The notes under the pieces were generated by a model. That model was not told where the DNA came from, did not search any database, and saw only the letters and a program-made list of their open reading frames with translations. Of a DNA stretch of 51,954 nucleotides, positions 7,022 to 8,883 are shown one piece after another. This DNA is from Candidatus Sericytochromatia bacterium. GTDB taxonomy: Bacteria; Cyanobacteriota; Sericytochromatia; UBA7694. Numbering within the stretch: position 1 is the first letter of the stretch; every line of letters starts with the position of its first letter. The stretch spans positions 1 to 51,954 of the forward strand of contig JACYMC010000090.1 in NCBI GenBank assembly GCA_015272195.1. The letters are read 5' to 3'. The translations under genes and the position numbers were made by a program.

Positions 7022-7123
7022 GCTTTCAGCGGACGCAGACCCTGACTGTGCGCTATAATACAATTTAAATCTGGCTCTCTTTTTCCCTGACAGTGGACAA
7101 ACTAATATAAAGGAAGTGGCGCG

Positions 7124-8368
7124 TTGAGAAACCACTTTGATCGCTTTCATTCTGAGCATTGGGGCATTCTGGAGGTGATGATCACCGATCATTCGCCGAT
7201 TGATTTGAACCGGCTCTGCATTACCAGTCGGGACGATGCCCATCACTTTGTGCTGAATTATGGCTATGATCTGGATCAGCCCGAAGAAGCGGCTGAAGTG
7301 GAGCAGATTCGCAAAGACGCCCTGCGCTTTATTCAAACCTACTTCTTAGATACTCTGGTGCCAGAGTACCGGCCCATGTGGTTTCCGCAGGCCGTTCAGA
7401 ATGCCGCGGTGATCGATTTGCTCCTGCTGGCTTCAGCCAATCCACGCGGCCAGCTGCAAAAATGGGCCTGTGCGGTCTTGCGGGTGATGCATACCATTTC
7501 TCATGCGGTAACCGATCTTTCGACACACTTTTTTTCAGATATTCAGAAACAGATTCTGACGCCTTACTACAAAAATATTCACCATATTAACGAGGGGCTT
7601 TTTCTGGGCAAAGACCCCAGTTTTCGGATTCCGCTGGTGGATTTTGAGGTTAAAGCCGGCAAAGAGCGCGACTCGTCAATTCTGAAACTCTTACATAAGC
7701 CCGAAAATGTCGCCGCAGATATCTTTGACCAGATTGGAGTGCGTTTTGTGACCAAAGATCGTCTGGATGCGATTCTGGTGCTGCATTACCTGCGCGAAAA
7801 CCATATTGTGCCCTTCCCCAATGTCAAGCCCAGTCGTTCGGTTAACACCCTGATCCATATTGAAAAGTTCCGGCGCACCTTTCGCGAACTCTATAAAAAT
7901 TACCGCCAGGGCCAGATCGAAAAAAAAGAACTGGAAGACTTTTTGCGCCACAGTGCCCAGTTCCGTGATGTATTAACGGACCGGCAGGTGCATCAGCTCT
8001 TTAACCGCAACCCTTACACCAGCCGTCAGTACCGCTCCATGCAGTTTACCGTGCGTCAGCTGGTGCGCATCAACAATCCCCTTTACCCCTATAAACAGCA
8101 GCTGGCCGACGAAAACGAAGGCCATCCAGCCGCCCATGCCCGCATTCAAAATGCCCGGCCCTATTACCGCTTTTACTTTCCGTATGAAGTGCAGATTGTG
8201 GATGTCAAAACCCATCAGAACAATATCAGCGGTGCCGCCAGCCATGAGGTCTACAAACACCGCCAGCTGGTCAGCGCCCGCGAACGGGTGCTGGGGACGC
8301 TGCTTAAGCCTGCAGAGCATCCGGCAGCCAGCCTGCAGTCCTGGCAGGAAGAAAGTGAGCTGGTCTGA
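7124..8368 (+). CDS. Conserved hypothetical protein with a divergent RelA/SpoT-like nucleotidyltransferase domain (predicted)
   Basis: 414 aa, TTG start with AGGAAG RBS. Ordered motif blocks: AGKERDSSILKLL; IFDQIGVRFVTKDRLDA; YRSMQFTV; YEVQIVD; GAASHEVYKHRQL. These resemble the R-x-K..S, D-x-x-(G/A)-(V/I)-R, Y-x-S-x-x-T-V, E-x-Q-I-R and AAHW-x-YK blocks of RelA/SpoT synthetase domains. Confidence 0.65.
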   Translation: MRNHFDRFHSEHWGILEVMITDHSPIDLNRLCITSRDDAHHFVLNYGYDLDQPEEAAEVEQIRKDALRFIQTYFLDTLVPEYRPMWFPQAVQNAAVIDLLLLASANPRGQLQKWACAVLRVMHTISHAVTDLSTHFFSDIQKQILTPYYKNIHHINEGLFLGKDPSFRIPLVDFEVKAGKERDSSILKLLHKPENVAADIFDQIGVRFVTKDRLDAILVLHYLRENHIVPFPNVKPSRSVNTLIHIEKFRRTFRELYKNYRQGQIEKKELEDFLRHSAQFRDVLTDRQVHQLFNRNPYTSRQYRSMQFTVRQLVRINNPLYPYKQQLADENEGHPAAHARIQNARPYYRFYFPYEVQIVDVKTHQNNISGAASHEVYKHRQLVSARERVLGTLLKPAEHPAASLQSWQEESELV

Positions 8369-8370
8369 GC

Positions 8371-8883
8371 ATGGTCCAGGTCTGGGTCTATGGCTTTGAA
8401 CCCTTTAAGCACTACCGCCGCAATATCACCGCTGAGCTGCTGGCTGACTTTCCGGCGCTGCCCGGCGTGCAGATTGATGTCTTGCCCGTATGTTTTGATA
8501 AGTCGCTGTTTCTGGCGCCTGTGCGCCAGCTGCAGCCGCGCTGTGTGCTGGGGCTGGGCCAGTGCCCGCGCGGTGAGCTGCTGCGCATTGAGCGCCGGGC
8601 CTTTAATCAGATGCGCGACAAAAGCACCGGCCTGGATGCTCTGATTGATCCGGTGGGCCCGGCCACCCTACATACGGCCTGGCGTTTGCAGCCGGGCAGT
8701 CGCTGCCGCGACAGCTATGATGCCGGGCGCTATGTCTGTAATTTTTCGATGTATGTACTTGGCCAGCAATCCGCCCAGCAGGGTTTTGCCTCGGCCTTTT
8801 TGCACCTGCCGCGCCAGTTTAATCTGAGTCAGGCCCGTCGTGAGGTGCTGCGCCAGCTTGAAAAGGTCTTAAAACATGTCTGA
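8371..8883 (+). CDS. Pyroglutamyl-peptidase I-like (peptidase C15 family) protein, short and divergent
   Basis: 170 aa. VYGFEPF at the N-terminus, VLGLGQCPRGELLRIERRAFN, GRYVCNFSMY and GFASAFLHLPRQF match C15 landmarks. The Glu, Cys and His expected for the catalytic triad are all present. Confidence 0.7.
   Translation: MVQVWVYGFEPFKHYRRNITAELLADFPALPGVQIDVLPVCFDKSLFLAPVRQLQPRCVLGLGQCPRGELLRIERRAFNQMRDKSTGLDALIDPVGPATLHTAWRLQPGSRCRDSYDAGRYVCNFSMYVLGQQSAQQGFASAFLHLPRQFNLSQARREVLRQLEKVLKHV

Follow-up and report, generated by a model that had tools for sequence, protein, structure and literature searches.

A catalogued protein family without assigned function belongs, as a divergent branch, to the RelA/SpoT synthetase fold

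RelA/SpoT-type synthetases make ppGpp, the bacterial starvation signal, and enzymes of this fold govern whether bacteria grow, lie dormant or tolerate antibiotics. With ATP and tRNA ends newly included among the acceptors, the view of the superfamily's role has changed. A gene in a 51,954-nucleotide stretch of DNA from a Candidatus Sericytochromatia bacterium (contig JACYMC010000090.1; the whole stretch is called the window below) raises the question of whether a further enzyme of this kind lies within a conserved hypothetical protein and, if so, onto what it might transfer pyrophosphate. A preliminary description of the DNA had proposed a divergent RelA/SpoT-like nucleotidyltransferase with a possible resemblance to toxic small alarmone synthetases (toxSAS).

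The gene occupies positions 7124–8368 of the forward strand, on which all features given below also lie, and has an open frame of 414 codons from a TTG start. A probable ribosome-binding site, AAGGAAG (7110–7116), can be read from the sequence 7 bases 5' of the TTG. The protein matches NCBIfam TIGR04562 with 361.5 bits against a cut-off of 140 (residues 13–390 of 414, profile positions 2–355 of 356) and TIGR04552 with 347.6 bits against a cut-off of 125, and it is a member of this family with no difference from it. Both models bear the sole description 'TIGR04552 family protein', without a function, in agreement with the earlier view of a conserved hypothetical protein; the present analysis adds to these entries a connection between the whole family and the synthetase fold of RelA/SpoT. 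In the open-access literature searched, no mention of TIGR04562 was found and TIGR04552 is mentioned only in a mutation table (PMC9888234), and the link may already be known to specialists outside that literature.

The 414-residue protein by itself lies under the Pfam cut-off for RelA_SpoT (PF04607; E = 0.042, 14.6 bits against a gathering threshold of 27), and the match is therefore convincing at the family level only. At that level, 48 of 50 diverse members individually match PF04607 at E ≤ 1, the best with E = 7.3e-8, and every other Pfam family finds at most three of the 50. The 27-bit cut-off is passed by a few relatives, most members examined staying below it, and the member from Kiloniella aligns across profile positions 4–111 of 113. 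A hidden Markov model built from nine canonical Rel synthetase domains found 66 of 73 members at E ≤ 10, as against 2 of 292 reversed or shuffled decoys, and 14 members and no decoy at E ≤ 1e-3. In the reverse direction, the TIGR04562 model weakly matches frames of 731 and 727 residues in two Pseudomonadota genomes, which have the length of Rel and are candidate Rel proteins. An hhalign comparison with Rel gave an E-value of 3e-4 and a probability of 40% over the C-terminal block. A single-sequence pattern search of genomes found no relatives, and an alignment-based search found 320.

Neither phmmer nor a profile search found an RSH match among PDB sequences, where the 414-residue protein alone has no match of any kind, and the relationship is visible in the PDB by fold comparison only. 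AlphaFold models were obtained with 12 homologs (pLDDT 81.5) and with 50 homologs (pLDDT 89.6, pTM 0.83). For both models the top Foldseek matches among PDB entries consist entirely of RSH synthetases, with RelP first (probability 1.00), followed by RelQ, the Streptococcus pneumoniae and S. mutans enzymes, RelSeq, Mycobacterium tuberculosis Rel, Bacillus subtilis Rel and ribosome-bound RelA. The TM-scores are modest, about 0.4–0.5 by target, and the r.m.s.d. is high because of the insertions. This comparison, which the preliminary description had suggested as a check, thus reveals the RelA/SpoT α/β fold in the predicted structure and, together with the sequence profiles and the exact motif spacing described below, backs the proposed divergent nucleotidyltransferase fold. 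These findings assign the family, catalogued without a function, to the RelA/SpoT synthetase fold, within which it has diverged.

The protein has twice the length of RelP (SAS2) and RelQ (SAS1), and its N-terminal helical region and three-helix insertion also set it apart from them. Residues 1–109 (7124–7450) form an N-terminal helical extension with the family-invariant residues S24, D27, Y46 and G47; this part has no Pfam match and shows no resemblance to the HD domain of Rel, and an HD remnant at the N-terminus was therefore rejected. The helices of residues 110–151 (7451–7576), with an invariant H123-x3-H127, run into the synthetase sheet. The long insertion noted previously between blocks 2 and 3 is present and helical (residues 246–295; 7859–8008), comprising helices 246–261, 267–281 and 286–295 in the AlphaFold model. 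A second, smaller and variable helical insertion at residues 318–346 (8075–8161), or 321–342 when delimited more narrowly, separates blocks 3 and 4 and is missing in several homologs of the same class (L006–L009). Several relatives, including these and the Eremiobacterota paralogs, lack either the second insertion or a profile match across the three-helix insertion. As had been described, no HD, TGS or ACT domain was matched in the Pfam search. The absence of these domains distinguishes the protein from the long RSH enzymes (Rel, RelA and SpoT), whereas RelP and RelQ likewise have no hydrolase or regulatory C-terminal domains.

The five blocks of the synthetase fold were found in the order proposed earlier, at residues 179–190 (GKERDSSILKLL), 200–208 (IFDQIGVRF), 303–310 (YRSMQFTV), 354–358 (YEVQI) and 370–378 (GAASHEVYK). 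The spacing pattern K-x3-S-x3-K, D-x4-R/K, Y/F-x3-Q/H, E-x-Q-x12-G-x3-H/Y-x2-Y-K/R occurs in 74 of 74 members, in 9 of 9 canonical Rel proteins and in none of 3700 shuffles; the pattern was devised after viewing the family, and its real test is the fit to Rel. The ATP-phosphate motif K180-x3-S184-x3-K188-x3-K192 (7661–7699) is invariant in all 50 diverse members and has the spacing of Lys80, Ser84 and Lys88 in Staphylococcus aureus RelP (SaRelP). It is followed by D202-x-x-G205-x-R207 (7727–7744), which contains the counterparts of the Mg-binding Asp107 and the adenine-stacking Arg112. The contacts of SaRelP used for comparison are Lys80, Ser84, Lys88, Asp107, Arg112, Glu174, Arg78, Arg91 and the G-loop Tyr151 (PMC5794853), and Glu174 and Tyr151 correspond to E355 and Y303. 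Among the 50 members, K180, S184, K188, D202, E355 and Q357 are invariant, which confirms that the catalytic Asp and Glu are kept, while R207 is present in 46 and replaced by Lys in the remainder, and the Y303 position is Tyr in 44 and Phe in 5. Two contacts have no exact counterpart: at the position of the adenine-stacking Arg78, residue 178 is variable and K177 adjoins, and K192 adjoins the position of Arg91. ATP binding could consequently differ from that of RelP.

The acceptor side departs further from the known enzymes. A conserved basic loop, N233-x-K235-P-S-R238-S-x-N241-x-L243 (7820–7852), is the probable counterpart of the acceptor-phosphate loop GRFKDY of Rel, with an uncertain alignment. 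In the syn3-like block Y303-R-S-M-Q307-F-T309-V-R311 (8030–8056), the stacking Tyr is kept and the His described as reading guanosine (PMC12226406) is replaced by Gln, as had been noticed for Q307; Gln is found at this position in 47 of 50 members and His in the other 3 (L068, L087 and L108). The family motif S/A-x-Q also differs from the GxN of Apk2 (PMC12226406). The syn4-like block E355-V-Q357-I-V-D360 (8186–8203) retains the Mg-binding Glu, while the Arg position of the EIQIR motif has changed, in most cases to a hydrophobic residue, and is followed by an Asp that is invariant in 50 of 50 members. The family thus lacks the (p)ppGpp-synthetase signature of a guanosine-recognising syn3 S-x-H with a syn4 Arg. 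Further downstream, G370-x3-H374-x2-Y377-K378 (8231–8257) lies at the same distance from the catalytic Glu as the GxAAHWxYK of Rel. Residues S24, D27, Y46, G47, H123, H127, N233, N241, N296, Q381 and R388 are family-specific invariants beyond the known chemistry. As judged from residue conservation, the ATP/Mg half of the active site is mostly intact, in contrast to a changed acceptor half. With Gln in place of the guanosine-reading His, and with the Arg behind the catalytic Glu lost and an invariant Asp next to its position, the acceptor is unlikely to be recognised in the way that Rel recognises GDP or GTP.

The distribution of the family was surveyed with TIGR04562, the phylum names being those in the seed-locus titles. 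Bdellovibrionota, to which the predator Bdellovibrio belongs, carries a match in 108 of 114 genomes, almost always in single copy, and Myxococcota in 61 of 96. Matches are also present in 11 of 78 genomes of the phylum that includes an Eremiobacterota member, with three copies in three of the 11, and in 12 of 18 genomes of the non-photosynthetic cyanobacterial class from which the window comes, in which one copy is broken by stops; the other Cyanobacteriota gave none in 41 genomes. Kiloniella carries the family within Pseudomonadota, where otherwise none of 99 genomes exceeds the cut-off, relatives also come from rumen lineages, and 14 control genomes contained no match. In the tree, the window sequence groups with Sericytochromatia sequences with full support. 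A protein deposited in a metagenome-assembled genome titled Klebsiella pneumoniae (CAMDBH010000001.1) groups with Myxococcales, also with full support, and the title of this record is probably wrong.

A canonical PF04607 protein is also present in 39 of 40 carrier genomes, indicating that the family supplements Rel; replacement of Rel was rejected on the same count. The window's own genome (G000), an assembly that is 91% complete in 273 contigs, has no RelA/SpoT match. A match of the full-length Rel type occurs in three of the four family-mates and one of the SAS type in the fourth, and given these matches and the incomplete assembly, the absence of Rel is probably an assembly gap.

Next to the locus, a gene of 170 codons resembling C15 pyroglutamyl peptidases (8371–8883) starts 2 bases past the stop of the synthetase-like gene and is possibly co-transcribed with it. 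Its protein is short and below the NCBIfam cut-offs, with residues that resemble the Glu, Cys and His of the C15 family, and the linkage is shared by one relative only (L029). In Bdellovibrionota the neighbourhood is a housekeeping one, with recA, pgpA and a gene resembling Fe-S oxidoreductases. Two recurrent neighbours there were considered as conserved operon partners, a protein without assigned function at position +1 (21 loci) and, at +2, the product of the gene resembling Fe-S oxidoreductases (24 loci); both were rejected, as neither was seen among the loci of Myxococcota or of the window's class. The neighbours vary in Myxococcota (Lon, LipB and guanylate kinase, named from sequence) and in the window's class, and no partner gene recurs across lineages, either in the window or among neighbouring reading frames of at least 80 residues elsewhere. 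No adjacent or fused antitoxin is indicated, since the window's class and Myxococcota show no recurring neighbour among frames of at least 80 residues and the window itself has no small partner. The searches gave no plasmid carrying a family match, no relative in IMG/VR and no match in PADLOC. The sole phage match, a homolog of 34% identity in the 273,876-bp 'Microcystis phage MaAM05' (MW495066.1:115540–132628), is surrounded by glyS, secDF, acpS, gatD and mtgA. Since these host-type genes lie all round it, the record is probably a bacterial contig deposited as a phage, and it was treated as mislabelled and rejected as a phage homolog.

On this evidence, we consider it likely that the protein transfers pyrophosphate from ATP to an altered acceptor, that it acts beside Rel and that it does not belong to a toxin pair. 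It would be a stand-alone chromosomal enzyme whose (p)ppGpp-synthetase fold is enlarged by N-terminal helices and by an insertion of three helices, and it would bind ATP-Mg as in RelP and RelQ through K180, S184, K188, D202, R207 and E355. The β,γ-pyrophosphate of ATP would then be moved onto an acceptor hydroxyl, which could belong to another nucleotide, to a cofactor resembling a nucleotide or to the end of an RNA. A product other than (p)ppGpp is possible and fits the altered residues of the acceptor site, and the near-universal Bdellovibrionota copy beside the usual ppGpp enzyme suggests that its pyrophosphate may go to some other target. More tentatively, the family as a whole, with its nearly universal occurrence in Bdellovibrionota and wide spread in Myxococcota, could serve a housekeeping role in which pyrophosphotransferases of the RelA/SpoT fold produce a nucleotide signal other than (p)ppGpp, or modify RNA or a cofactor, in parallel to the stringent response.

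Alternatively, the protein could be another (p)ppGpp synthetase that accepts GDP or GTP despite the change of His to Gln and serves as a second, differently regulated alarmone source. The prevalence of the stacking Tyr, the three members that retain His and the C-terminal block spacing, which is identical to that of Rel, as are K-x3-S-x3-K and D-x4-R, would be in keeping with such an activity, but the loss of the guanosine-reading His from nearly all members and the changed syn4 position make it unlikely. In known enzymes syn3 and syn4 vary with the acceptor, although swapping them failed to convert specificity (PMC12226406). A slightly smaller chance is given to a catalytically dead protein that retains the fold as a sensor of nucleotides or RNA or as a scaffold. 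The two imperfectly kept RelP contacts point in this direction, as does a frameshift in Bdellovibrio described below; however, the residues that contact the ATP phosphates and Mg are invariant in 50 of 50 members, which would be unusual for a dead enzyme.

Far less probable is a toxSAS of a toxin–antitoxin or phage-defence system that pyrophosphorylates the CCA end of tRNA or makes (pp)pApp. ToxSAS do occur in the superfamily (PMC11559606), and the family shares with them (FaRel2, PhRel2 and CapRel) and with the (p)ppApp synthetases Apk2 and Tas1 the same fold and altered acceptor-side motifs. Unlike these, it has neither a recurring partner nor a mobile context; the 102 bases between the previous gene and the start codon leave no room for an upstream partner, and the net charge of the protein is near zero, not strongly basic. 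The lack of a recurring partner and of plasmid, IMG/VR and PADLOC matches, the probably mislabelled phage record and the usually single, near-universal copy in Bdellovibrionota do not bear out the earlier comparison with toxSAS and argue for a normal cellular gene. If the pyrophosphotransferase with an altered acceptor is real, a second pathway of pyrophosphate transfer, carried by a vertically inherited branch beside Rel, would have been overlooked in predatory lineages.

The presence of three copies in some Eremiobacterota, together with the variation of the insertions, suggests subfunctions within the family, and the three members with the Rel-type His make the acceptor switch testable inside one family. 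In Bdellovibrio sp. NC01, a 1-nt deletion in the TIGR04552 gene DOE51_RS08710, listed under the family name alone, rose above 75% in evolved line B in coculture (PMC9888234, Table 1). This sweep of a frameshift indicates that loss is tolerated and the gene dispensable in coculture, where its loss was perhaps favoured unless the deletion hitchhiked with other mutations of line B.
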